This document shows positions 37,858 to 50,609 of a stretch of DNA of 64,000 nt, piece after piece. The DNA is from Leisingera aquaemixtae (lineage in GTDB: Bacteria; Pseudomonadota; Alphaproteobacteria; Rhodobacterales; Rhodobacteraceae): positions 1-64,000 of the forward strand of contig NZ_CYSR01000020.1 in the NCBI RefSeq assembly GCF_001458395.1, in the 5' to 3' direction. Each line of letters begins with the position of its first letter. The stretch's first letter is position 1. Made by a program: the position numbers and the translations under genes. The notes beneath the pieces were generated by a model. It made no database searches. It was not told the DNA's origin and saw nothing but the letters and a program-made list of their open reading frames with translations.

Positions 37858-40437
37858 TCAGCCCGCGTTGCCGGCTAAGGCCATCGTCTCCAGAACCGCG
37901 CTCAGCTGTTCCACCGTGTAGGGCTTTTTCAGGATTTTCAGCCCCGGGAAGCGCTTGGTGATGTCATCCGTTGCTCCGTACCCCGTGGCCAGCACCACCG
38001 CGATGCCCAGCTCGCGGCACCTCTCCACCACCGGCAGCGAGTTTTCCGGCCCCAGGTTCATGTCCGCCAGAACAAACTGCGTGCCGCCCCGCTCCAGCAG
38101 GTTCAGCGCGGTCTCGACCCCGCTGCAGGTCTCCACCTTTTCAGCGCCCAGCTGAGACAGCATGTCCGCCGCATCCATGGCGATGATCATGTTGTCTTCC
38201 AGCACCAGCGCATTGCCGGACAGGCGCGGCACAACCGACGCCTGACGTGCGCCGGTCTTCGGCGCCGGGGCCGCAGGCGTTTCCGCCTTGCGCACATGGC
38301 GGGCGGGCAGCACAAAATCCGCCTCCAGCCCGGTGAGCTGGTATTTCACGTTCGCTTCGCCCCGCAGCTCAAACGGCACCGATTGCTCGATCAGCGTGGT
38401 GCCGAAGCCCCTGCGCCGCGGTGCCTGGACCGGCGGGCCATCGCATTCGCGCCAGCTCAGCGCGGCGGTGCCGTCGCCGTTCAGCGCGGTGCGGATTTCC
38501 ACCCGCCCGGAAGAGTCGCTGAGCGCGCCGTATTTGACCGAGTTCGTCACCAGCTCATGAACGACCAGCGCCATGCAGGTAAACGCCGCGGGCGACAGCT
38601 CCAGCGCCTCGCCGTCAATCGACACCCGGCTGGCCTTGCCCGACAGAAACGCCTCGGTTTCCGTCCCGATCAGCACCGTCAGCGGGCTCCAGTCCCATTC
38701 CGAGCCGGTCAGCTGGTCATGTGCCCGCGCCAGCGCGTGAATGCGCGCGTCCAGCACCTCGCCAAAAGCATCGGCGGATTTCACCGACTCCTTGCCCTGC
38801 GACACCAGCCCGCGGATCAGGTTCAGGATGTTGCGCACCCGGTGGTTCAGCTCCGCAATCAGCAGCTCCTGCTGGTCCTGCGCCCGCTTGCGGGCAGCGT
38901 TGTTCTCATCCGCCAGCTTCAGAACCACTTCGATCAGGGTTGTGCGCAGGGCCTCGGCAGTGCGCTGCTCGCGCTGCTTCCACGGCTGGCAATGGCCGCG
39001 CGCCACCTCCTGCCAGGCCTCGAAACTCTTGCGCGGCGTCAGCCGCAGGCCATTCGGCCCCGGTTCGGCGGGTTTCTCCGGATTGCCCGCCCAGGTCACC
39101 GATTTGATCACCTCGCGCCGGAACAGCACAAAATAATCCCGCGGCTTGCGCGACACCGGGATCGCCAGCAGCCCGGCCACCCGGTCCGCAAACCCGTCAG
39201 TGGCCGGATAGCGCTTGATCAGGTTGCTGTTGCTATAGACCTGCGCGGGCGGCGTGGTGTTCAGGAACCGCACCAGCCCAAGGAACTCCTCTTCCACCGG
39301 GGCGGATCCGGTGGATTTGTACTGCCCGTCCGAATAAATCGCGGCCCCGTCAAAGGGGATGACCTCGCCGATGCCGCTGCACAGGTCTTCAAAAGCCGCA
39401 AACAGGTTGGAGCCATTGGACAGCTGCGGCATCAGGCTGTCATGCAGCTCCCTGGAACGGTCGATGTCGCCCAGCTCATCAGCCATTTCCATCTGAGCCA
39501 GCTCATAGTTGAACAGCTGCGCAAACAGCTCCACCGAAGTGCGCATTTCATAGCTGAGGTACTGCGGCTTGGGGTGATGGCAGGCGAACAGACCCCAAAG
39601 CTGGCCATTGCGCAGGATGGACACCGACATCGAGGCCGCAACCCCCATGTTCCTGAGATACTCCATATGGATCGGAGACACCGCCCGGGTCACCGCCAGC
39701 GACAGGTCCAGCGGTTCGCCATTGGGATCGGTTTCCGGCAGCACCGGGTAGACCGGCGCCGTGACGTCGGGAATGATCCGCAGCATGTTGCGCACATACA
39801 GCGCCCGGGCCTGCTTGGGGATGTCGCTGGCCGGATAGCGCAGGCCCAGAAACGGCTCCAGGTCCGAATCGCGGGCCTCCGCGATGACGGTGCCGCTGCC
39901 GTCTTCCTCGAACTTGTAGACCATGACGCGGCCATAGCCGCTCAGCGCCTTGAGGCCCCTTGCGGCCTCCTTCGCCATCGCGTCCAGCGCATCGTGGCGC
40001 TGCACCCGGCCGATCAGCGCCTGCACCATCCCCGGATCATGCACATCACGCGCATCCGCCGCCCGGCGCTCGAACTCCAGGACAAACAGCCGCCCGGACT
40101 GGTGGATGGAGACGTCATACCTCTGCCCGTCGCCGCGCAGGTCATAGCCGAACACCCGCACCGCGCTCTGCTGCATCCGCAGCATCTGCATCCGGGTGCG
40201 CAGATCGTGCAACGCCTGCGGGCTGAGAATATCCGTCACCGGCCGCCCCGGCAGCTCCGACTCATCCAGTCCCAGAACCTCTGCGCAATTGGCAGAGGCA
40301 TGGGCGATGATCCAGTCCGCAGAAACCGCCATCAGGCAGCCAAAGCTCTGCACCTGGCCGATAATATGGATCGGCTCCTGATCGCAGGTGGTCAGATCCA
40401 CCTGCGCCTCGGCGGCACTGGAAGTTTCGTCAGGCAT
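37858..40437 (-). CDS. bphP: Bacteriophytochrome: PAS-GAF-PHY, HWE-type histidine kinase, C-terminal receiver
   Basis: An 859-residue red/far-red photoreceptor. The biliverdin-attaching Cys is present (C18, TTCDQEPIHIIGQ), as are the GAF motif SDIP (204-207) and the PHY tongue motif PRKSF (469-473). The kinase is HWE/HisKA_2 type, with His in ELNHRVRNILNLIRG (H532) and N box HELVTNSVKYGALS. A receiver occupies about 735-859, with its phospho-Asp in VLADMNLG. Start ATG 40437 follows a GGGGAGGG site. The heme oxygenase gene ends inside its start region, so light sensor and chromophore enzyme are co-expressed. HWE kinases commonly feed the PhyR-EcfG general stress pathway. Confidence 0.93.
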   Translation of the reverse strand: MPDETSSAAEAQVDLTTCDQEPIHIIGQVQSFGCLMAVSADWIIAHASANCAEVLGLDESELPGRPVTDILSPQALHDLRTRMQMLRMQQSAVRVFGYDLRGDGQRYDVSIHQSGRLFVLEFERRAADARDVHDPGMVQALIGRVQRHDALDAMAKEAARGLKALSGYGRVMVYKFEEDGSGTVIAEARDSDLEPFLGLRYPASDIPKQARALYVRNMLRIIPDVTAPVYPVLPETDPNGEPLDLSLAVTRAVSPIHMEYLRNMGVAASMSVSILRNGQLWGLFACHHPKPQYLSYEMRTSVELFAQLFNYELAQMEMADELGDIDRSRELHDSLMPQLSNGSNLFAAFEDLCSGIGEVIPFDGAAIYSDGQYKSTGSAPVEEEFLGLVRFLNTTPPAQVYSNSNLIKRYPATDGFADRVAGLLAIPVSRKPRDYFVLFRREVIKSVTWAGNPEKPAEPGPNGLRLTPRKSFEAWQEVARGHCQPWKQREQRTAEALRTTLIEVVLKLADENNAARKRAQDQQELLIAELNHRVRNILNLIRGLVSQGKESVKSADAFGEVLDARIHALARAHDQLTGSEWDWSPLTVLIGTETEAFLSGKASRVSIDGEALELSPAAFTCMALVVHELVTNSVKYGALSDSSGRVEIRTALNGDGTAALSWRECDGPPVQAPRRRGFGTTLIEQSVPFELRGEANVKYQLTGLEADFVLPARHVRKAETPAAPAPKTGARQASVVPRLSGNALVLEDNMIIAMDAADMLSQLGAEKVETCSGVETALNLLERGGTQFVLADMNLGPENSLPVVERCRELGIAVVLATGYGATDDITKRFPGLKILKKPYTVEQLSAVLETMALAGNAG

Positions 40438-40993
40438 GAACCGCCCTCCCCTCGGCAGACTCAGCAGCAATGCATTCTAAGCAAAATTCGAACAGGCCGG
40501 TAGCATCTGTGACAATCCGGTCCGCCGCCGCGCCGCCGGCCGGAAGCGCTTCGGCCCGGGCCACATAGCCGCGCCAGTACTCCATATAGGGCGGCGCCGA
40601 CAAATAGCCGTCCGCATACATAGTCTCAGGCAGGCCGCTGTCCAGCCAGCGCTTGCGCAGCACCTTCGCGCCCAGGCGCGAGCCGGACACCACGTAATCC
40701 ACCGCCAGCGGATGCGGGTCCAGCGGCAGCCGCGGCACAGGCGCCAGGCGGCCCAGCTGCTCCAGATCCGCGCCAGCCCGCTGCGTCAGATCACGGATCA
40801 CCGGCGCGCAGGCGGCGCTCTGGCTCACCGGCTCCAGCGCCGCAAACAGCCGCCACTGCAGCAGCAGAAAGCGCGCATAGCCCTCCGCGCCCTGCTGATC
40901 CAGCCGGGTTACCTGATCATCCAGCGCGGCATGGCAGTGCCGCGTGTCCCCGCGCAGCCGGGCACGCAAGTTCTCATATTGGGCCTTAGCCAC
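40430..40993 (-). CDS. bphO: Heme oxygenase for biliverdin synthesis (BphO)
   Basis: A 187-residue heme-oxygenase-superfamily protein. The likely proximal heme ligand is the His in LRGDTRHCHAALDDQV near the N terminus, and the distal-helix region is YVVSGSRLGAKVLRKRW with the Gly-containing kink. It opens heme to biliverdin, the chromophore of the bacteriophytochrome encoded next; the two genes overlap by eight bases. Translation is taken from GTG 40993, which has GGGGGA nine bases upstream and gives normal length; the longer open frame adds 42 atypical residues. Confidence 0.85.
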   Translation of the reverse strand: MAKAQYENLRARLRGDTRHCHAALDDQVTRLDQQGAEGYARFLLLQWRLFAALEPVSQSAACAPVIRDLTQRAGADLEQLGRLAPVPRLPLDPHPLAVDYVVSGSRLGAKVLRKRWLDSGLPETMYADGYLSAPPYMEYWRGYVARAEALPAGGAAADRIVTDATGLFEFCLECIAAESAEGRAVHA

Positions 40994-41413
40994 GGAACCG
41001 TTCCCCCTAGTCAGCAGCACTATAGCGTTCGCCAAAACCGAATCAATGGGCTTCCGCCGCGATACCAGAAGGGGAAAAGCAAAGTTTTGCAACGCTTTAG
41101 ACGCCTTTCCCCGGCGCAAGCCGCGCTGGGGCGGCCCTTACCGCGGGGCACTTGGCCGGCCGGCTTCCGGCCCGGCCCCGCTGCTGCCGGGCTGCCTGCC
41201 CTTTAGGCGCCCAGTTTAACTAACTTCAACGCAAGTCGCCGGCAGGCCGTTAACCCAATGTTTACAGCCCTTTCCGCGCAAATGCGGCGGAAATCGGGCA
41301 GGTCTGCCGCAATTGCCCGGAAGCTGCCGCGAACATTCCGCAATTGGCTTTCAGCGTGAAGGCCAGCCCGCGCCCTCTGCCCGGGCCCCACGCCGCCACG
41401 AGGACCTGACGCC
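40994..41413. other. Divergent intergenic region bphO / kinase cassette
   Basis: About 420 bp with no gene I can support. It should hold the promoters of the minus-strand bphO-bphP operon and the plus-strand kinase-GTPase cassette. Partly lower GC stretches occur near 41030-41110 and 41210-41280. I found no exact EcfG-type site; TTAAC-N17-CGTT on the minus strand near 41228-41253 is only a weak partial match. Confidence 0.4.
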
Positions 41414-42778
41414 GTGCCGCATGACATCTTTTCCGCCGATCCGGCGCCGGCCAGCGAACTGCCCTGCGGCTTCAAGCTGCTGCAGGGCCAGTACCAGATC
41501 GAGCGGCCTCTGCTCAGCGGCGGCTTCGGCATCACCTATCTGGCCCGCGACAGCCTGGAACGCCGCGTCGTGATCAAGGAATGCTATCCGGCGGGACTCT
41601 GCCGCCGCAGCGGCACCGATGTGGAACCCAGCTCCCCCGAACACGCCAGATCCTGCCGCAACGTGCTGCGCGCCTTCCTGCGCGAGGCGCATCTGCTGGC
41701 CCGCGCCCGGCATCCCGCCATCGTCGGTGTCCACCAGGTGTTCAAGGAAAACCAGACCGCCTATATCGCGATGGAGTTCATCGACGGGCTGGACCTGCTC
41801 ACCGTGCGCGAGGAGCAGCCGGAGCGGCTGACCGGGCCGGTGCTGCGCCGGATCCTCGATCAGTCGCTGGAGGCGCTGGACTGCCTGCACCGGCTGGGCG
41901 TCCTGCACCGCGACATCTCGCCGGACAACATCCTGCTGGGCAAGGACGGCACCGTGACGCTGATCGACTTCGGCGCCGCCTGCGGCAGCACCCCCGATGA
42001 CAGCACCGCGCTGCCGATGCTGCTGGCAGTCAAGGACGGCTATTCGGCCCATGAGCTTTACAGCCCCGACCTGCCCCAGCGCCCGGCCTGCGACCTCTAC
42101 GCGCTTGGCGCCACGCTCTACTACCTGATCACCGGCGCTCCGCCCGCGGCCAGCCAAAAGCGGCTGGCGGCGCTGCTGGCGGGCTCCCCGGACCCCTGCC
42201 GCCCGCTGCTGGGCGGGCCCTGGGCCGCAGACCCGGCGCTGCTGGCGACCGTGGACATGGCGATGTCGGTGCTTCCGGCGGAACGGTTCCAAAGCGCCAG
42301 CGGCTGGGCCGCCGCCCTGGCGGAGGAAGTCGCGCCGCAGCAGGCCGTAGACCCGCAAACCACCCCGGCGGCCCCCGCGGCGGCAGCCGCCTGCGCAGAC
42401 GACGGCAGCCGGCTGGCCGCGGCAATCTCCGAGCTGGTCGCCAAGACCAATGACAGCCTCAAGCCCGGCCTGCCCCGCTCCGCCCGCCAGGCGCAGACCC
42501 CGCCTGCCGCCCCGCCCGCCGGACCGCGCCGCCCGCTGGTCAACATCTTCGGCGAGCCGGTCACCGACCTTGAGGCCTGGCTGGAAGAAGAGGATGCGAT
42601 CTCCTGGCGCAAGAAAATTGCCCCTTCCGCGCAGCAGCCGCCGGGCGCGGCCCCGGTACCGCTGGCAGATCCGTCGGACCCGGCACTGGGCCTGCGCCGG
42701 GACAAGCCGACATTCGCCGGCCGCTTGCGCAGGATCTTCGGGCGTCCCGCCAACAGCCCGCAAACGGTTAAGAACTGA
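41414..42778 (+). CDS. Ser/Thr protein kinase
   Basis: A 454-residue Hanks-type kinase. The glycine loop SGGFG (35-39), catalytic Lys in VVIKE (K55), HRDISPDN (H165-N172) and DFG (185-187) are all intact, so it should be active. After the kinase domain (about 27-315) comes a Pro/Ala-rich linker and a short basic C-terminal patch (FAGRLRRIFGRP); no transmembrane span is evident. It opens a run of eight plus-strand genes that includes an FHA phospho-reader, a PP2C phosphatase and three GTPases, which are its probable partners and substrates. Confidence 0.92.
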   Translation: MPHDIFSADPAPASELPCGFKLLQGQYQIERPLLSGGFGITYLARDSLERRVVIKECYPAGLCRRSGTDVEPSSPEHARSCRNVLRAFLREAHLLARARHPAIVGVHQVFKENQTAYIAMEFIDGLDLLTVREEQPERLTGPVLRRILDQSLEALDCLHRLGVLHRDISPDNILLGKDGTVTLIDFGAACGSTPDDSTALPMLLAVKDGYSAHELYSPDLPQRPACDLYALGATLYYLITGAPPAASQKRLAALLAGSPDPCRPLLGGPWAADPALLATVDMAMSVLPAERFQSASGWAAALAEEVAPQQAVDPQTTPAAPAAAAACADDGSRLAAAISELVAKTNDSLKPGLPRSARQAQTPPAAPPAGPRRPLVNIFGEPVTDLEAWLEEEDAISWRKKIAPSAQQPPGAAPVPLADPSDPALGLRRDKPTFAGRLRRIFGRPANSPQTVKN

Positions 42779-42783
42779 AGGGA

Positions 42784-44136
42784 ATGGGTATGAAGTTCAT
42801 CAAGGATATCATCGGCGAAAAGCGGGAACGGGTCCGCCTGGACGGCGCCGCCGCCCCAGCCGCGGAACCGGTGCAGCCGCCTGCAGAGGACACCGGCAGC
42901 CGCGCGCCCTTCAGCCTCGGCAGCAGCTTCCGGCTGGACCCGGAACCCGGTCCGCCCCCCGCCAGCCCGGACGCTGCCGCGTCCCTGACAGAGGCTTTCC
43001 GCGACCCGCCGGACGTGCCCGCGGCAGACCTGGACGGTGAACCGGACGATGATTTCGCCGGTTTGAGCGGGCCCGAACCGGAGGAGGATGCGATTGCCGC
43101 CTTCTTCGCCCGCGAGCAGACCCGGACCGCGGCACAGGACCGCCCGGACACCGCCGCCTTCTTCGCCGCCCCGGAGCATGACACCGCAGAGGCGGATCCC
43201 GCGGAAGCGCCGGAAGAGGATTTCTTTGCCCAGCCGGAAGACGCAGACGACGACACGGCAGAGGCCTTCGCGGCGGATCCGGATTTCAGCCGCCTGCAGC
43301 AGCCGGAGCCGGACGCGGACACCGCCAGGCCCTACCGGATCTTCACGCGCAGCCACACCGCCGGGCGGAGCCCAGACGCCATGGGAGACCGCACCGAAAC
43401 CGCCGCAGCACCTGCTCCTGAGCCGGACCCGCAGCCGGAAGTGCAGCCCGCAGTGCAGCCGGAACCCGCCTTCATCGCGGCGGACCCCCCGGCCCCTCAG
43501 GCTGCCGCGGCCCCGGCAGCGCAGCCCGCATGGGAAGCGCCCCCGGCGGAGGCGCCGCAGGCCGCCGTCTGCGCCCCTGCCGCCGCACCCATCTCAGCCC
43601 CCGCTGGCGCGCCGATTGACGTGCCCGCGCCCTCGATGGGCCGCGGCGCCAGCCGCGCGGGCCGGGTCAAGACCCGCCTCCTGGGGTTCAGCCCGGCGCA
43701 GGCCGCAGCCAGCGACCCGTTTGCCCGCAGCGCAGAGGCCGCGGCGCCCGGCTACACCCAGTTTCCCGTCGGCTGGCTCGCCATCGTGCAGGGGCCGGGC
43801 CGCGGCGCCGCCTTCACACTGTTCAGCGGCGTCACCGTGATCGGCCGCGGCGCGGATCAGACCGTGCGGCTCGACTTCGGCGACAACAGCATCTCCCGCG
43901 ACAACCACGCCGCCATCGCCTATGACCCGGAGCAGAAGTCCTTCTTCATCGGCCACGGCGGCAAGGCCAACCTGGTGCGCCGCAACGGCCGCCCCGTGCT
44001 CAGCACCGAGGCGCTGTCGGCGGGCGACGTGATCCGGATCGGCGAAACCACCCTGCGCTTCGTGCCGCTGTGCGGCGCCGACTTCGGCTGGGACCAGCCG
44101 CAACACAGCGATGCCGCAGATGCTGCATTCCGCTGA
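42784..44136 (+). CDS. FHA-domain protein with long acidic Pro/Ala-rich N terminus
   Basis: A 450-residue protein. Residues about 1-320 are disordered-looking, rich in Ala, Pro, Asp and Glu, with a basic patch VKTRLLGF near 295-302. The FHA fold occupies about 330-428: the phosphothreonine-binding residues lie in VIGRGADQTVRL and NSISRDNHAAIAY, and the strand ends VIRIGETTLRFVPLC. It probably binds a phosphothreonine made by the adjacent kinase, perhaps in its own tail. It begins five bases after the kinase stop and overlaps the phosphatase gene by 26 bp. Confidence 0.9.
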   Translation: MGMKFIKDIIGEKRERVRLDGAAAPAAEPVQPPAEDTGSRAPFSLGSSFRLDPEPGPPPASPDAAASLTEAFRDPPDVPAADLDGEPDDDFAGLSGPEPEEDAIAAFFAREQTRTAAQDRPDTAAFFAAPEHDTAEADPAEAPEEDFFAQPEDADDDTAEAFAADPDFSRLQQPEPDADTARPYRIFTRSHTAGRSPDAMGDRTETAAAPAPEPDPQPEVQPAVQPEPAFIAADPPAPQAAAAPAAQPAWEAPPAEAPQAAVCAPAAAPISAPAGAPIDVPAPSMGRGASRAGRVKTRLLGFSPAQAAASDPFARSAEAAAPGYTQFPVGWLAIVQGPGRGAAFTLFSGVTVIGRGADQTVRLDFGDNSISRDNHAAIAYDPEQKSFFIGHGGKANLVRRNGRPVLSTEALSAGDVIRIGETTLRFVPLCGADFGWDQPQHSDAADAAFR

Positions 44137-45088
44137 GATCGAATACGACGCCGCGACGGCCCTCAGCCAGGGCCGCCGCGAGCGTCAGGAGGATGCGGTC
44201 GCCGCCGATTTCCCGGCCGGCACCGGCACCGGCTTTGCGGTGCTGGCCGACGGCATGGGCGGCCATGCGGCCGGCGACATCGCCAGCCGGATCGTGGTGA
44301 CCGAGGTGTTCAGCGAGCTGAAGCTGCAGGCCGGCGATCCCGCGGCGCTGGAACAGGCCATCGGCGCGGTGCTGCAGCAGGCCGCCAATGGCGCCGACGC
44401 CTGTCTTGGCGAATATGCCAGCCATCAGCCCCAGGCCCGCGGCATGGGCGCCACCCTGCTGGCGCCGGTGCTGTTTTGCGACCGGCTCTATTGGATCTCG
44501 GCCGGCGACTCGCCGCTCTACCTGTTCCGCAAGGGCAGCCTGATCCGGCTCAACGCCGATCACTCGATGGCGTCTGAATTGGATGGCCTGGTGGCCGAGG
44601 GCCGGATGGACGCCGCCGAGGCCGCCAGCCACCCGGACCGCCACTGCGTCACCTCGGTGCTGACCGGCGCGGGCATCCCCCGCATCGACTGCCGCAGCGC
44701 CCCGGTGCGCCTGCAGGCGGGCGATATCGTGCTGGCCGCCAGCGACGGGCTGCAATTCCTGCCCGAAGCCGAAATCGCCGCCGTGCTGGCCGCCGAATGC
44801 CTGAGCCCCAGCGCCCGCATCGGTGCGGTGCTGATGCAGCGGCTGAAGGCTCTGAACGCACCCGAACAGGACAATGCCGCGCTCTGCGTCATCAAACCCT
44901 TCGACCCGCGCGCCAGGCACCCTGAACCGGCCCCGGCTCCGGCGCGGGACCTGGCACAGCCCGCGCCCCCGCCGCAAGCCCCGGCTCCGCGCCCCCGCGG
45001 CGGCCGCCGCGTCGTGACCCTGCTGGCCTCCGCGACATGGCGCGCCGCGCCCGCCGCCAGCCAAACCAAGACGGATGCACCGGTGTGA
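44111..45088 (+). CDS. PP2C-family Ser/Thr phosphatase
   Basis: A 325-residue phosphatase with PP2C metal-binding motifs: RRERQEDAV (about 22-30), LADGMGGHAAGD (45-56), GMGATLLAP, WISAGDSPLYLFR, LAASDGLQFL and DNAALCVI. All acidic ligands are present, so it should dephosphorylate targets of the neighbouring kinase. Beyond residue about 265 is a Pro/Ala/Arg-rich tail. The frame overlaps the FHA gene upstream and the P-loop gene downstream (GTGA). Confidence 0.92.
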   Translation: MPQMLHSAEIEYDAATALSQGRRERQEDAVAADFPAGTGTGFAVLADGMGGHAAGDIASRIVVTEVFSELKLQAGDPAALEQAIGAVLQQAANGADACLGEYASHQPQARGMGATLLAPVLFCDRLYWISAGDSPLYLFRKGSLIRLNADHSMASELDGLVAEGRMDAAEAASHPDRHCVTSVLTGAGIPRIDCRSAPVRLQAGDIVLAASDGLQFLPEAEIAAVLAAECLSPSARIGAVLMQRLKALNAPEQDNAALCVIKPFDPRARHPEPAPAPARDLAQPAPPPQAPAPRPRGGRRVVTLLASATWRAAPAASQTKTDAPV

Positions 45089-46287
45089 GCCTCTCCCAGC
45101 GAGACATAACCCCGCTTGCCGGCCAGCTGGAGCACACGCTCAGCACCGGGCTGCTGCCGCCGGACGTGACCGGCTGGGGCAGCCAGCTGCTGCAGCGGCT
45201 GCGCCAGCCGGTCCGGGTGGCTGTCACCGGCGCCCCGGGCACCGGCAAATCGGCGCTGATCGACATGCTTCTGGGCCGGGTGGTGATCGGCAGGGCCGCC
45301 GCGGGCCTGCCGGTCGAGATCTGCTACGGGCCCGAGGAGCAGGTGGTGTTCGACACCCCTGCCGGCACGCGCCGGCAGCAGGCCGGCTGCCTGGCAGACA
45401 CCGCCGTGCCGCCGGATGCGCTGCGGGTGCGCCAGCACCTGCCCGACCTGCGGCTGCGCGCCCACAGCTTTTGCGAAATCCCGCTGGCAGGCCCGCCCGG
45501 CCGCCAGCAGGACACGCTGCAGCAGGCCGCCGCCATGGCGGACATCATCCTGTGGTGCAGCGAAACCTTCCCCGAGGCCGAGCAGGCCCTGTGGTCGGCA
45601 ATGCCCGACAGCACCAAGGATCACAGCTTTCTGGTCCTCACCATGGCCGACCGCCAGATCATGCGCGGCATCCTTCCCGGCCTGATCCAGTCGCTGGAGC
45701 CGGTCGCCGCAGAGGAGTTTCTCGGCGTCTACCCGGTGGCCGCCATCCAGGGCCTGACGGCGCAGACCGCCGGCGCCCCGGCAGAGGGTCTGTGGCGCTC
45801 CAGCGGCGGCAGGCAGCTGGCCGAAGACGTGCAGCGACAGATCGGCCTGGGCCGCGCCTCGGATGCGGATCAGGCGGAACTGCTGATCCGCCAGTTTGGC
45901 GGCCCCCTCCCGGCAGACGCTCCGCCGCCGCCCGCGGTCAGCACCGCCCGCCCCGCCGCAGCACCGCCAGCCCCCGCCGCCAGCCTGGCCGCGGCGCTGG
46001 ACCAGCTGCACAGCGGCGCCGAGGACATGCTGGCCCAGGCCGAAGCGGCCGGCGGCCCGCAGGCAGGCCCTGTCCTGGCGCACTGTATGGACCTGATCCG
46101 CAGCCTGTCCGCCTCGCTGGAGGCCCTGCCCGGCAGCGCCGCGGTCAGCGCCGCCCGCGACGCCGCCCAGGACGGCGAGGAGCTGTTGATGCTGTGCCAG
46201 CTGGAACAGGACGAAGACGCGGCCATCGACGCGGTGACGCTGCTTTTCCAACTGAAGAAGGAGCTGGCCGAAGTCCCCCCCGGGTAG
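45085..46287 (+). CDS. P-loop GTPase-like protein, divergent
   Basis: A 400-residue protein from GTG 45085, sharing bases with the PP2C stop. Walker A GAPGTGKS (49-56) follows a helical lead of about 40 residues. The position of the GTPase DTPG is occupied by the degenerate EIPLAGPPG, and TMAD could serve as the TxxD guanine-specificity motif, so nucleotide choice and hydrolysis are uncertain. From about 290 on the protein is Ala-rich and predicted helical (ALDQLHSGAEDMLAQAEAAGG). It is probably a regulatory or partner subunit of the dynamin-like GTPase encoded next. Confidence 0.75.
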   Translation: MSLSQRDITPLAGQLEHTLSTGLLPPDVTGWGSQLLQRLRQPVRVAVTGAPGTGKSALIDMLLGRVVIGRAAAGLPVEICYGPEEQVVFDTPAGTRRQQAGCLADTAVPPDALRVRQHLPDLRLRAHSFCEIPLAGPPGRQQDTLQQAAAMADIILWCSETFPEAEQALWSAMPDSTKDHSFLVLTMADRQIMRGILPGLIQSLEPVAAEEFLGVYPVAAIQGLTAQTAGAPAEGLWRSSGGRQLAEDVQRQIGLGRASDADQAELLIRQFGGPLPADAPPPPAVSTARPAAAPPAPAASLAAALDQLHSGAEDMLAQAEAAGGPQAGPVLAHCMDLIRSLSASLEALPGSAAVSAARDAAQDGEELLMLCQLEQDEDAAIDAVTLLFQLKKELAEVPPG

Positions 46288-46345
46288 CGCCCGCGCCCGG
46301 AAACGCGCCCAAGAACACGCCAATGCAGGAACAGCAGATTCAGCC

Positions 46346-48406
46346 ATGAACATGGAAGCCCAGATCGAGAGTGCCACCGACATCCGCGCCTCCGCGCGGC
46401 CGACCAACCTGAACGCCGGGCTGGAGCCGCTGGCGGCATATGCCCGCAAGGCGCAGCGGCTGGATACCGCGCTGGCCGCCCTTGCCGGGGTGTCGGGCGA
46501 GCGGGTCCGGCGCAGCCTGGCCCGGCTGCAGGCGGAACTCGCCGCGTTCGAGCCCAGCGTCACCCTGCTGGGGCAGGTGAAATCCGGCAAGACCTCCCTG
46601 GTGAACGCCATGGCAGGCTGGGCCGACCTGCTGCCCTCCGACGTCAATCCCTGGACCTCGGTTGTCACCTCATTGCACCTGGAACCGGACGGGACCCGCA
46701 CCGAAAACAAGGCCAGCTTCCAGTTCATGACCGAGGACGAATGGGACCGGCTGACCACCAAAGGCGGCCGCATCGGTGAAATGGCGGGCCGCGCAGGCGC
46801 CGGCAGCGAGCTGCAGAAGATCCGCGCCCAGATCGAGGAGATGCGCGAACGCTCCCGCCAGCGGCTGGGCCGCAAGTTCGAACTCCTGATGGGGCAGAAG
46901 CACGATTACGGCTATTTCGACAAGAACCTGATCGAACGCTACATCTGCCTCGGCGACGACTTCGGCGGCGAAGAGCCGGGCGGCGCGGACGAACAGGGCC
47001 GCTTTGCCGACATCACCCGCGCCGCCGATCTGTACCTGAACTGCCAGAGCGTGCCGCACCGCCTCTGCCTGCGCGACACGCCGGGCGTAAACGACACCTT
47101 CATGATGCGCGAGCAGATCACCATCCAGGCGATCCGCGACAGCCGCATCTGCGTGGTGGTGCTGTCGGCGGGCCAGGCGCTCACCTCGGTCGATATGGGG
47201 CTGATCCGGATGATCTCCAGCCTCAAATCGCGCGAGGTGGTGATCTTCGTCAACCGCATCGACGAACTGGCCGACCCCGCAAACCAGGTGGCCGAGATCG
47301 AGGCCAGCATCCGCCAGACCCTGCAAGCGCACCACGGCCCGCAGGAGGCCACCATCCTGTTCGGCAGCGCCTATTGGGCCAACAAGGTGCTGACCGGCGG
47401 GCTGGAGGATATGGATCCGGCCAGCTCCGCCGCGCTGCTCAGCTGGGCCGAGGCGTCGGTCAACGCGTCCCACGCCAAGGCCACCGCCCAGAACATGGTG
47501 TGGGAGCTGTCGGGCATCCCGGCCCTGAACCGCGCGGTCTCCGAACGCATCGCCGCCGACCTCGGCACCCCGCTGCTGACGCGCATTGCCGCCTCCGCCA
47601 CCACGGCCGCCACCGGCCAGCAGGCCGCCAACGCGGTCCTGGTGCAGGGCGAGGGCAGCGGCGGCGGCGCCAACCTGCACGACGTCCGCACCGCTTTCGA
47701 GGATCTGTGCCAGAGCCACCTTGAGGCGCTGGAGGCGGAGGCGGGCCAGGTGCTCGACGCCTTCCGCGACCGCGCCGACCGGGCGCATGCCACCTTTACC
47801 GACCGCGCCACCCACGCGCTGATCGACCATCTGGAGAAATGGGGCGAGGACTGCCATTGGGAATACGACCCGGCCGGGCTGCGGATGCTGCTGCGCTCTG
47901 CCTACTCGGTGATGGCCAGCCGCCTGCAATCCGCCGCGCAGACCCGCTACGAGGCCGCGGTGCAGGATGTGGCAGAGCTGCTGTATGACGGCTTCGGCCC
48001 GGCGGTCGAGGGCATCCAGCTGGCGGTGCCCGAGGTGCCCCAGCCCGCCTCGCCGGTGGCGCTGGCGCAGTCCATCGCACTGGATTTCAACGACAGCTGG
48101 TGGGCCTCCTGGTGGCGCCGCACCCGCGGCTACAAGGCCTTTGCCAAACAGTTCCGCAGCCTGGTCGCTGGCGAGACAGAGGATTTCATGACCCAGCTCA
48201 AGACCGTGCAGACCGCGGACGCCCGCGCCGCCATCCTCGCCCGGCTGCAGGGCTTCTTCGACGATCAGCGCGACATCCTGCTGGAAATCGCCGACTGCCG
48301 CCGCGGCGGCGGCGACATGCAGGCGCTGTTTGCCGGCGATGAGGCCCGCCGCCGCCAGACCCAGACCGCCACCGCCTTGGAAACCCTCAGGAGCTTCACC
48401 GCATGA
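46346..48406 (+). CDS. Dynamin-like large GTPase
   Basis: A 686-residue protein with a complete GTPase domain: G1 GQVKSGKTS (76-84), G3 DTPG (244-247) and G4 NRID (303-306). About 110 residues separate the G2 region (NPWTSVVTSL) from the start of the G3 strand, much of it charged helix. After about 430 it is mainly helical (AFEDLCQSHLEALEAEAGQVLDAFRDRADRAHATF), as in the stalk of bacterial dynamin-like proteins, with a Trp-rich patch (SWWASWWRR) near 590 that could touch membrane. It starts 58 bp after the previous gene and overlaps the next by ATGA. Role unknown. Confidence 0.85.
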   Translation: MNMEAQIESATDIRASARPTNLNAGLEPLAAYARKAQRLDTALAALAGVSGERVRRSLARLQAELAAFEPSVTLLGQVKSGKTSLVNAMAGWADLLPSDVNPWTSVVTSLHLEPDGTRTENKASFQFMTEDEWDRLTTKGGRIGEMAGRAGAGSELQKIRAQIEEMRERSRQRLGRKFELLMGQKHDYGYFDKNLIERYICLGDDFGGEEPGGADEQGRFADITRAADLYLNCQSVPHRLCLRDTPGVNDTFMMREQITIQAIRDSRICVVVLSAGQALTSVDMGLIRMISSLKSREVVIFVNRIDELADPANQVAEIEASIRQTLQAHHGPQEATILFGSAYWANKVLTGGLEDMDPASSAALLSWAEASVNASHAKATAQNMVWELSGIPALNRAVSERIAADLGTPLLTRIAASATTAATGQQAANAVLVQGEGSGGGANLHDVRTAFEDLCQSHLEALEAEAGQVLDAFRDRADRAHATFTDRATHALIDHLEKWGEDCHWEYDPAGLRMLLRSAYSVMASRLQSAAQTRYEAAVQDVAELLYDGFGPAVEGIQLAVPEVPQPASPVALAQSIALDFNDSWWASWWRRTRGYKAFAKQFRSLVAGETEDFMTQLKTVQTADARAAILARLQGFFDDQRDILLEIADCRRGGGDMQALFAGDEARRRQTQTATALETLRSFTA

Positions 48407-49389
48407 CCCAGCACACCGCCATTCCTGCCCCCCTCGCTCCAGACGCGGCCCCGGCGCGCAAGCCCCGCCTGGCGCTGATGGGGGAATTCAGCGCCGGCAA
48501 AAGCACCCTGACCAACCTGCTGGCCGGCCGCGCCCCGCTCCCCACACGCGTCACCGCCACCCGGCTGCCGCCGGTCTGGCTGTCGCACGGGCCGGAGGGC
48601 GCCAGCCTCACCGGCACCGACGGCAGCGAAACCCCGGTGCCGCTGGAGGACATCGCCGCGGCACCGCTGGAAAGCACCGCACTGATCCGCCTGACCCTGC
48701 CCGCCGAGGCGCTGGAGCTGTGCGATCTGATCGACATGCCCGGCATCTCCGACCCGAACATGCCCGCCAGCGTCTGGCAGGCCCTGCTGCCCGAGGTCGA
48801 CAGCGTGATCTGGTGCACCCATGCCACCCAGGCCTGGCGCCAGTCCGAAGCCGCCGCGTGGGAGGAGATCTCCAGCCGCCTCAGCGGCCCCAGCACCCTG
48901 CTGATCACCCACTTCGACAAGCTGCGCAATCCCCGCGACCAGGACCGCGTGCTGCGCCGCGTGCAAAAGGAAACCGGCGATGCCTTCAACGCCATCTTCC
49001 CGCTGTCGCTCAGCCAGGCGCTAACCGCGGGCGAGGATATGGAAGCATGGAAGACCAGCGGCGCCGACCGCTTTGCCGAATATTTGGTGGATCTGCTGCT
49101 GAACTGGGCAGAGCCCGGCCGCCGCCCGGCCCAGGCCGCAGCCCCGGCCCAGCCCCAGTCTGCCCCGCAAACCGCACCGCAAGCGGGCGGAGGTCCGCGC
49201 GCCGAAGTGCTGGATTTCGGCAGCAAGCGCGAGGCCGCCGCCCAGGCCCAGACACAGGCGCAGGCGCAGACAGCCGCCGGCAGCGCCGATCCCGCCAGCC
49301 GGGTGATGCCGCGCCGCGTCGCCCCGCCGGCCAAGCGCAGCCAGCGCCCAGGCCGCGCCCGCCCCGAACCCCAGCCCGCCGGAGACTGA
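48403..49389 (+). CDS. Dynamin-family-type GTPase, short
   Basis: A 328-residue GTPase with G1 GEFSAGKS (27-34), the same GEFSAGKST form as bacterial dynamin-like proteins, G3 DMPG (111-114) and THFD (170-172 region) as guanine-specificity motif. The stalk is missing: after about 240 the protein turns into a Gln/Ala/Pro low-complexity and Arg-rich tail. It is therefore a stand-alone G domain that may pair with the large GTPase, whose stop overlaps its start. Confidence 0.82.
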   Translation: MTQHTAIPAPLAPDAAPARKPRLALMGEFSAGKSTLTNLLAGRAPLPTRVTATRLPPVWLSHGPEGASLTGTDGSETPVPLEDIAAAPLESTALIRLTLPAEALELCDLIDMPGISDPNMPASVWQALLPEVDSVIWCTHATQAWRQSEAAAWEEISSRLSGPSTLLITHFDKLRNPRDQDRVLRRVQKETGDAFNAIFPLSLSQALTAGEDMEAWKTSGADRFAEYLVDLLLNWAEPGRRPAQAAAPAQPQSAPQTAPQAGGGPRAEVLDFGSKREAAAQAQTQAQAQTAAGSADPASRVMPRRVAPPAKRSQRPGRARPEPQPAGD

Positions 49390-49446
49390 CACCGCCATGC
49401 CAGCCGCTGCCGCCCCGGATTGCCCGCGCCGCGAAGGAGACCCAAG

Positions 49447-49830
49447 GTGACGCTTGCCCGCCAGCTCGACACCCTGCGCCAAAGCGCGGACGGCTGCCGC
49501 CTGGCGGCCTTCGGCGATCTGGGCGCCAGCATCGTCCTGCGCAGCAGCAGCGCCGCCAGCGACCCGCGGGAATACCTCGACGCGCTGTGCCAGCAGGCCC
49601 GCCGCGGCTTCCTGATGCTCGACGCCGCGGTGCAGGCCGGGCCGGAGGCAGCGTGCCCGCCCGCCGATGACATCCTGATGCTGGTCCCGGGCGAGGCCCG
49701 CCTCTGCATCCGCGCGCCCGATGGCTCCGGCGACGCGCTCTTGTGCGTCTGCAGCGACGCGGACACCGCCGCCCGCCTGGCGGCACCTGCGCGGGCGCTG
49801 CTGGCCGGTCTCGGCGGGGGCGCAGAATGA
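49447..49830 (+). CDS. Small alpha/beta protein of the GTPase cassette, possibly Roadblock/LC7-like
   Basis: A 127-residue protein from GTG 49447, with GAAGGAG upstream. I recognise no family motif. The order helix (LARQLDTLRQS), two strands (CRLAAFGDLGASIVL), helix (REYLDALCQQARRGFL), three strands (DDILMLVPGEARLCIR, DALLCVC) and helix (TAARLAAPARALL) matches the Roadblock/LC7 fold, whose members bind small GTPases. That would suit its place behind three GTPase genes, but it is a structural guess. Confidence 0.6.
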   Translation: MTLARQLDTLRQSADGCRLAAFGDLGASIVLRSSSAASDPREYLDALCQQARRGFLMLDAAVQAGPEAACPPADDILMLVPGEARLCIRAPDGSGDALLCVCSDADTAARLAAPARALLAGLGGGAE

Positions 49831-50609
49831 CCAGCCCCGCCCGCCAGCTCCCCGGCGCAAAGCCCGCCCCGGACGCGCTGCACCAGGCGCTGCGGCAGCT
49901 GGCGCAGCCGGTGCAGGCGCTGACTGCCCAGGCGCAGCGCGCCGCCGCGGGGCAGGAACCGCTGCTGCCTGCCCTGCTGCGCGAAATCGGGGAAACCGTG
50001 CTGCCGCGCGAAATCACCCTTTGCATCGGCCAGACCCCCGCCGCCGTTCTCACCGCCGCCCACCGCAGGCTCGCAGGCCTCAGCCTGGGCGGCACGGCGG
50101 AGGCGGGCGCCGCGCCGGAGGACCCCGCCGCCGCCGCCCGGCTGTTTGCCGCCCGGCTGCGCCGGCTGGAGGCGCAGGCCGCAAGCGCCGGCATCACTTT
50201 CCGCCGCCGCCCCTGCGCAGCGCCGCAGGGCGCAGGCAGCTGCACCGCCGCCCAGCTGCAGGAAGCGCTCGCCGCTGCCAGCCGCAGCCCGCTCGGCACG
50301 CTGCGCAGCGCCGCCGCGGCGCAGGCCCTGGCGTGGATCCATTGCCCTGCCGGTGCGCAGGCGCCGGTCAGCGGCGGCCCTGCCCCCCTGCTGCAACAGC
50401 TGCAGGCGGTCCGCAGCGCCTTTGCCGCCAGCGCCGCCCGCCCGGGATCGGCCAGAATGCCCGCCCACAGGCCCGACTGCCTGCTGCTGCCGGTCTCGCC
50501 TAATCTGCGCATCCTGGCCGCCGCCCATGAGGATGAGCTGCTGCTTCTGGCGCTGCCGCCCGGGGCCGTCCCCGGCCTGATCGAGACCTGGGACGCCCTG
50601 TTCTCCTGA
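49827..50609 (+). CDS. Uncharacterised Ala-rich protein, last gene of the GTPase cassette
   Basis: A 260-residue protein I cannot assign. It starts within the previous stop (ATGA). The first 190 residues are mostly helical and Ala-rich (PDALHQALRQLAQPVQALTAQ). The last third (about 150-260) follows the same strand/helix order as the preceding protein: LGTLRSAAAAQALAWI, then a helix, then PDCLLLPVSPNLRILAAA, DELLLLALP and a final helix LIETWDALF. A shared domain between the two is possible. It ends 21 bp from the convergent TlpA-like gene. Confidence 0.6.
   Translation: MTSPARQLPGAKPAPDALHQALRQLAQPVQALTAQAQRAAAGQEPLLPALLREIGETVLPREITLCIGQTPAAVLTAAHRRLAGLSLGGTAEAGAAPEDPAAAARLFAARLRRLEAQAASAGITFRRRPCAAPQGAGSCTAAQLQEALAAASRSPLGTLRSAAAAQALAWIHCPAGAQAPVSGGPAPLLQQLQAVRSAFAASAARPGSARMPAHRPDCLLLPVSPNLRILAAAHEDELLLLALPPGAVPGLIETWDALFS

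Follow-up and report, generated by a model that had tools for sequence, protein, structure and literature searches.

The stretch of DNA analysed here, hereafter the window, comprises 64,000 nucleotides of Leisingera aquaemixtae (assembly GCF_001458395.1, contig NZ_CYSR01000020.1, positions 1-64,000), and at positions 41414-50609 it carries a cassette of eight plus-strand genes. These encode a Ser/Thr protein kinase, an FHA protein, a PP2C phosphatase, a degenerate GTPase here called P4, a long dynamin-like GTPase (hereafter the dynamin), a short dynamin-type GTPase and two small proteins, u7 and u8 (Table 1). The spacing between successive genes is 5, -26, -4, 58, -4, 57 and -4 bases, and these gaps, together with the Pfam matches and catalytic motifs of the encoded proteins, bear out the original prediction of a tightly packed unit with mostly overlapping or abutting junctions. 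Weak P-loop matches are all that Pfam returns for P4, and u7 and u8 have no match. P4 and u7 most likely start at GTG codons (45085 and 49447, respectively), which correspond to the annotated starts on two Leisingera plasmids. Purifying selection acts on every one of the eight genes, with ratios of nonsynonymous to synonymous substitution rates of 0.11-0.50 against five Leisingera relatives (0.11-0.17 for the dynamin). A promoter and terminator scan gave a signal no higher than chance.

Table 1. Genes and motifs of the cassette, in window coordinates. Pfam and NCBIfam values are expect values (E) unless given in bits.
Feature	Length (amino acids)	Position	Strand	Evidence and remarks
Ser/Thr protein kinase	454	41414..42778	+	Pfam Pkinase 3.3e-29; intact HRD (HRDISPDN) and DFG
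FHA protein	450	42784..44136	+	Pfam FHA 4.6e-7, residues 351-420 (C-terminal); long Pro/Ala/acidic N-terminal region
RVKTRLLGF motif (Thr297)		43663..43689	+	54 residues N-terminal of the Pfam FHA match; candidate phospho-threonine docking site
PP2C phosphatase, Stp1-like	325	44111..45088	+	Pfam PP2C_2 1.3e-10; DGMGG; NCBIfam Stp1 3.8e-37, 128 bits against a cut-off of 230
P4, degenerate GTPase with C-terminal extension	400	45085..46287	+	P-loop kept, DxPG lost; related to the short dynamin-type GTPase
Dynamin-like GTPase	686	46346..48406	+	Pfam Dynamin_N 1.4e-13; GQVKSGKT, DTPG, NRID
WWxxWW segment		48098..48115	+	dynamin residues 585-590; candidate membrane-contact tip
Short dynamin-type GTPase	328	48403..49389	+	Pfam Dynamin_N 1.9e-9; GEFSAGKS, DMPG, THFD; conserved WCTHATQAWRQSEA motif; no trunk-sized C-terminal part
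u7, predicted Roadblock/LC7-fold protein	127	49447..49830	+	AlphaFold2 model
u8	260	49827..50609	+	C-terminal half weakly roadblock/longin-like by predicted structure

The cassette is a real conserved unit and not a chance neighbourhood. All eight genes occur in the same order and on one strand in 69 of 80 named loci, a collection that holds the best 80 of 488 confirmed loci and whose selection favours the full cassette. Eleven named loci were not scored complete: nine of them (L089, L095, L119, L128, L133, L137, L142, L148 and L150) look cut near the cassette, as judged from locus lengths, while L122 has no match to u7 and L145 none to P4. A hand-picked set of 40 loci from the family Rhodobacteraceae (L031-L070), made up of the 20 closest besides the window's own genome and 20 drawn from the remaining dynamin loci, overlaps the named collection (L069 and L159, for example) and includes the complete ordered cassette in 22 cases, the rest being cut, rearranged or missing genes. 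Open reading frame (ORF) starts were set mechanically in this cross-locus comparison, and intergenic gap ranges taken from it are rough. Over 69 loci, the protein-distance matrices of the eight families correlate at 0.69-0.93, with P4 against the dynamin the highest, in a comparison that had no host-gene control. The gene-neighbourhood search called for by the original prediction thus finds the eight genes neither scattered among relatives nor regularly part of a named system.

Within the family, the dynamin is present in 78 of 295 sampled genomes, a count that includes the window's own genome and one weak match (1.3e-5), and some genomes carry more than one copy. Wider searches at E 1e-30, in which two to three candidates were scored per genome and distant forms can be missed, detected it in 2 of 385 genomes sampled across the class, both of them Rhodobacteraceae, and in 9 of 398 sampled across the phylum, eight of which belong to the same family and one to another family of the class. 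At this last locus (L173:9346-12824), the dynamin and short GTPase genes form a pair, and the other six genes have no match within 20 kb.

Several relatives arrange these genes differently. In Ruegeria sp. AD91A, the order runs dynamin, GTPase, u7, u8, a second dynamin, a P4-like GTPase, kinase, FHA protein and PP2C phosphatase, followed by two solute-binding-type proteins. In Leisingera sp. S132, the kinase half is inverted so that it faces the dynamin half, and two solute-binding-type genes lie between the FHA and kinase genes; this is the second of two different dynamin cassettes that the strain carries on two plasmids (NZ_CP083557.1 and NZ_CP083558.1), and the dynamin on its other plasmid is 91% identical to that of the window. 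Rhodobacter sp. CZR27 has two dynamin/GTPase pairs, with the kinase module absent from the stretch seen. The two modules, dynamin/GTPase and kinase/FHA/PP2C, are thus joined differently in different relatives. The genes flanking the cassette likewise differ among loci. In a scan of 105 of the 603 called flanking ORFs, drawn from 38 of the 80 named loci, the commonest among the 25 of 90 Pfam families listed were Response_reg (9), HATPase_c (8) and HisKA (7). A response regulator, a histidine kinase and a LuxI-type synthase adjoin the cassette in six of the 40 hand-picked loci (L051-L054, L061 and L062; for instance L051:13211-16905), the domains having been checked on one copy.

Both the dynamin and the short GTPase retain their G motifs, and the cassette contains two adjacent genes with dynamin GTPase domains, as is expected of a bacterial dynamin-like pair. 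The family profile of the dynamin matches, over its G-domain part, the long chain of the dynamin-like protein (DLP) structure from Campylobacter jejuni (5owv_A, 7.9e-11) and Nostoc BDLP (2j68, 1.2e-9), and that of the short GTPase matches the short chain (5owv_C) over positions 18-227 with E 3.6e-18. From the masses given in PMC6104087, we take the 732-residue chain of 5owv to be DLP1 and the 614-residue chain to be DLP2. Outside the G domain, the dynamin bears a WWxxWW segment that recurs in 116 of 139 homologues (81/81 in named loci, 31/51 in hand-picked family loci and 4/7 in plasmid loci). Like the other pooled motif counts (n = 110 for FHA proteins and 114 for P4), this one combines named, family and plasmid loci, overlaps included. 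Dynamin homologues in loci L030 and L083 each contain one in-frame TGA, and these genes may be pseudogenes or the codons errors. P4 is homologous to the short GTPase at the level of the two families (hhalign probability 99.8%, E 9e-28), and its homologues keep a P-loop in 107 of 114 cases and D.PG, anywhere in the protein, in only 14 of 114. Three GTPase-related proteins are indeed present, as had been predicted, but because P4 mostly lacks D.PG the supposed triple GTPase set probably consists of two active GTPases and a degenerate one.

The two small proteins, originally described as being of unknown kind, return no Pfam match in the window, and searches of their sequences against Pfam, NCBIfam, PADLOC and PDB sequences gave nothing convincing beyond scattered weak Pfam matches of single family members. 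For u7, structure prediction gives an answer that had been missed. The AlphaFold2 model, built from 55 sequences, has a predicted local distance difference test score (pLDDT) of 92.7 and a predicted template-modelling score of 0.86, and its best PDB match is the Streptomyces Roadblock/LC7 protein 3kye (Foldseek 9e-6; VIA-align Z 15.8, root-mean-square deviation (rmsd) 2.2, 117 residues aligned), with MP1/p14 and MglB among further structural matches. We therefore assign u7 a predicted roadblock fold. The model of u8 (AlphaFold2 pLDDT 91.0) gives weak Foldseek matches to chains of Mon1-Ccz1 and Ragulator, the best being a chain of the Mon1-Ccz1 complex at E 3.6e-3 and none reaching 1e-3. Its best Z is 7.8, with an rmsd of 3.8 over 99 aligned residues, in a comparison that covers mostly the C-terminal half (residues 154-260). 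The resemblance is too weak for us to claim u8 as a Mon1-Ccz1 or Ragulator member. In L. aquaemixtae R2C4 (L168:17240-18023, NZ_CP041163.1), the annotation splits u8 into two short genes that overlap, which may reflect a frameshifted copy or a sequencing error.

The first three genes of the cassette would supply a phosphorylation switch. Between the Pro/Ala/acidic region and the FHA domain of the second protein lies a threonine motif whose KTRLLGF core is conserved in 94 of 110 FHA proteins (67/77 in named loci), with a looser pattern present in 106; among the four exceptions to the latter, three have VKTTFLGF instead and one is truncated at the end of its contig. Thr297 may be the phosphosite of the FHA protein. 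The kinase of the window contains no hydrophobic membrane segment in a hydropathy scan. Such a segment occurs in 10 of 76 named kinases, mid-protein in six long kinases and near the C-terminus in four, and in 5 of 27 kinases of the hand-picked set, all five of which lie beside sensor-type genes; a sixth hand-picked locus has the neighbours only. The tested neighbours in relatives contain the Pfam domains SBP_bac_3, LysM, PBP-like with OmpA, and PilJ, and we read them as putative periplasmic sensors, tied to the cassette by neighbourhood in a minority of relatives. Where a predicted transmembrane kinase and sensor-type neighbours occur together, the signal received probably comes from the periplasm or the envelope. 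Envelope stress, which had been suggested as the input, thus finds a hint in this minority, although nothing in the window itself points to it.

We propose that the eight genes specify a dynamin machine, heterotypic and switched by phosphorylation, that works on the cytoplasmic side of the inner membrane, a reading to which we give a probability of about 50%. It is supported by the profile matches of the dynamin to the long and of the short GTPase to the short C. jejuni DLP chain, by the gene order kept in most named loci, by the correlated distance matrices of the families and by the homology of P4 and the short GTPase. It gains further support because u7 is a predicted roadblock protein, a kind of protein that acts together with GTPases in MglAB and in conservons, and because long kinases with a mid-protein hydrophobic segment adjoin sensor-type genes in several relatives. 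In such a machine, the long dynamin would carry the membrane-binding part, and the short GTPase and P4 would pair with its G domain, much as two DLPs pair in Campylobacter. The u7 protein, probably together with u8, would set the GTP cycle or scaffold the GTPases. The kinase and PP2C phosphatase would together control whether Thr297 of the FHA protein, or else a GTPase, is phosphorylated, and binding of the FHA domain to phosphothreonine would then open, close or recruit the GTPase complex. The output would be membrane remodelling, most likely for envelope maintenance or repair. The original prediction of a membrane GTPase machine switched by threonine phosphorylation and read by the FHA protein fits this anatomy and is strengthened by the conserved threonine motif, although we infer its function and interactions as well as the phosphosite and the membrane binding.

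Several observations weigh against this proposal. Among the 40 hand-picked loci, 11 contain the dynamin/GTPase pair with no match to a kinase, FHA protein or PP2C phosphatase within approximately 20 kb, and phospho-control is therefore not needed everywhere for the dynamin pair. The WWxxWW segment is absent from 20 of the 51 dynamins of the hand-picked set. None of 55 u7 members has a Pfam roadblock match at E up to 1, the u7 and u8 profiles are unlike one another (profile comparison probability 1.3%), and the resemblance of u8 falls within the range of common arrangements, for which reason its roadblock/longin likeness is best treated as a lead. Finally, a strong hydrophobic segment is missing from 66 of 76 named kinases, and a sensor-family neighbour is present in only 5 of 76 named loci, four of which also have the kinase segment; envelope input therefore does not generalise.

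Comparison with described systems places the parts of the cassette among known kinds. The closest counterpart of the GTPase pair is C. jejuni DLP1/DLP2 (5owv), which tethers liposomes in vitro according to PMC6104087. As in C. jejuni, the dynamin-like genes are adjacent, and the long and short partners match the long and short chains. Unlike that pair, the short partner here has 328 residues rather than the 614 of the solved chain, and the cassette further has P4 as a degenerate third GTPase, together with a roadblock protein and the kinase, FHA and PP2C proteins; the word 'kinase' does not occur in the main text of PMC6104087. LeoABC of Escherichia coli is likewise a multi-gene dynamin set, with proposed heterotypic partners (PMC4159319), and its LeoA model matches the dynamin of the cassette. 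The same paper describes the Leo proteins as paired dynamins whose loss approximately halves vesicle cargo, and by extension the pair encoded here might be a vesicle or secretion machine that drives vesicle release under phospho-control. We consider such a role unlikely: LeoA is reported to be periplasmic, whereas a hydropathy scan of the eight proteins reveals no hydrophobic N-terminal segment, the kinase/FHA module implies a cytosolic location, and no cargo gene was seen travelling with the cassette. The word 'kinase' is also absent from the main text of PMC4159319.

A second comparison concerns the roadblock protein. The conservons of Actinomycetota (CvnA-D) and MglAB (PMC4316618) combine a kinase, a roadblock protein and a GTPase in one operon, and their roadblock proteins act with the GTPases. 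There, however, the kinase is a histidine kinase and the GTPase is Ras-like, in contrast to the Ser/Thr kinase and dynamin-type GTPases of the cassette, and FHA and PP2C proteins are not among the four conservon core proteins named. By analogy, the cassette might be a switch for polarity, motility or adhesion in which the dynamin-type GTPases signal and do not reshape membranes, an explanation that the predicted fold of u7 would suit, as would the LuxI-type synthases and the two-component regulators that adjoin the cassette at some loci. Arguing against it, Pfam finds no Ras-like (MglA-type) GTPase in the cassette, where both the long and the short GTPase match Dynamin_N; the neighbours vary among loci; and the 686-residue protein has the length to accommodate a trunk and contains a segment rich in Trp. 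We regard this switch as improbable.

The DO-GTPase/GAP1 conflict systems, as set out in PMC7159879, resemble the cassette in having paralogous TRAFAC GTPases, some of which have kinase and PP2C neighbours; unlike it, they are described in a main text from which the word 'dynamin' is absent. None of the eight proteins has a Pfam match to GAP1, FNIII or GASH, and neither GAP1 nor DO-GTPase is among the families listed for the members of alignments A5, A6 (short GTPase) and A7 (P4; 25 of 38 families listed), in a library whose inclusion of these models is unconfirmed. The Mon1-Ccz1 and Ragulator assemblies share the fold of u7 and, weakly, that of u8, and differ in that they are eukaryotic and their partners are Rab or Rag proteins. 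Taken together, the phospho-switch, the heterotypic dynamins with their degenerate companion GTPase and the roadblock protein do not satisfy the full definition of any system compared. Among the papers listed in searches of the open-access PMC literature, none describes the cassette, and roadblock-type regulation of dynamin-family GTPases was likewise absent from the papers listed there.

The pairing of a kinase and a PP2C phosphatase with an FHA reader recalls the threonine phosphorylation pathway of the type VI secretion system (T6SS), which shares these three activities. The cassette might therefore be a post-translational control module of that system (PpkA/PppA/Fha) kept apart from the structural genes. 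The genome does hold a T6SS, on another contig (C7), and VipB is somewhat commoner with the dynamin, being found in 25 of 78 genomes that have the dynamin and in 47 of 217 that lack it (odds ratio 1.7; Fisher p 0.09, uncorrected for kinship). However, no T6SS is linked to the cassette, VipB is without a match in 53 of the 78 family genomes that have the dynamin, and where both are present they lie on different contigs in 21 of 25 genomes and on one contig in only four, at distances of 71, 135, 157 and 333 kb. The T6SS region (G000:C7:29010-59000) has two VipB matches 13 kb apart and, by reading, an FHA-type protein of its own, and C7 also carries the genome's other Ser/Thr kinase, at a distance of 14 kb from one of the two VipB matches. 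The T6SS FHA model is absent from the NCBIfam matches of the eight proteins at E up to 1, in a library not confirmed to hold such a model. Dynamins and roadblock proteins are not known to be part of the T6SS threonine phosphorylation pathway. Linkage and co-occurrence disfavour a role in T6SS control, which we consider very improbable. Nor is a TerY partner linked: the eight proteins contain no vWA domain, the two vWA matches of the genome are on contigs C27 and C2, and TerD has no match in the genome, in agreement with the earlier view that no T6SS or TerY partner is linked. With no vWA in the cassette or on its contig and no TerD, a TerY-P triad is rejected for this genome.

Another bacterial dynamin reportedly acts in anti-phage defence at the membrane, and phage defence had been offered as one purpose of the cassette: the kinase would sense infection, and the dynamin machine would protect or sacrifice the membrane. 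The patchy distribution of the dynamin in the family (78/295), its carriage on plasmids and its presence in more than one copy in some genomes would suit this role. The best NCBIfam match of the kinase is to the defence kinase MAD6, and PADLOC matches the kinase to mad6 (5e-43) and PD-T4-6 (4.6e-43) and the dynamin to LeoA (8.7e-11), with weak mad8 and LeoBC matches also found among the eight proteins. At the PADLOC threshold of 1e-10, the 105 flanking proteins gave eight protein-to-model matches (four to mad3, two to mad8 and one each to ATPase-Toprim and AriA), six of them to MADS models. However, the MAD6 match reaches 115.9 bits against a model cut-off of 460, and the PADLOC matches of the kinase are read as generic because they spread over 34 kinase-type models. 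The flank count lacks control flanks, and its mad3 and mad8 matches are untraced to their source proteins, ten guessed candidates among the flanking proteins having given none. No dynamin relatives were found in 50,697 phage records. Thus, the suggestion of phage defence finds no system-specific evidence, and we give it little credence relative to the dynamin machine proposed above.

Contig C20, to which the window belongs, has 101,738 bases in a genome of 4.61 Mb. The dynamin of the window is 98-99% identical to those on five plasmid records of L. aquaemixtae and approximately 94-95% identical to those on five L. caerulea records. In total there are 18 matching plasmid records, typed as non-mobilizable. 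The plasmid of L. aquaemixtae M602 that carries the cassette is circular, with 101,352 bases and a replication initiator 12.5 kb past the cassette, and C20 is presumably a plasmid of this kind. The cassette also occurs on megabase-size contigs of other relatives, L. aquimarina among them, and is therefore not bound to one replicon. Upstream of the kinase gene, divergent and 294 bases away, lies an ORF whose equivalents in relatives carry the annotation heme oxygenase; positions 37858-41119 of the minus strand encode a bacteriophytochrome-type HWE histidine kinase (PAS_2, GAF, PHY and HWE_HK) and this ORF, whose L. aquaemixtae equivalent is annotated as a biliverdin-producing heme oxygenase. 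The downstream neighbour is a redoxin-type gene, convergent and 21 bases away.

More tentatively, the cassette may represent a kind of bacterial membrane machine that has no name so far. A eukaryote-like phospho-switch (kinase, PP2C phosphatase and an FHA protein that bears a docking threonine) and a roadblock/longin-type regulator, formed by u7 with u8 in analogy to Ragulator or Mon1-Ccz1, would together gate a pair of active dynamins and a pseudo-GTPase. Periplasmic sensors that bind solutes or are anchored to peptidoglycan would feed this machine in some lineages, creating an outside-in signalling route to dynamin-driven membrane remodelling; we hold this broader interpretation to be possible but doubtful. 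Bacterial dynamins are widespread and their control is poorly known, and this operon would make such control testable in culturable marine bacteria. If the proposal of a phosphorylation-switched dynamin machine is correct, dynamin remodelling would be coupled to reversible threonine phosphorylation and to a roadblock-fold protein within one compact, widely conserved operon.

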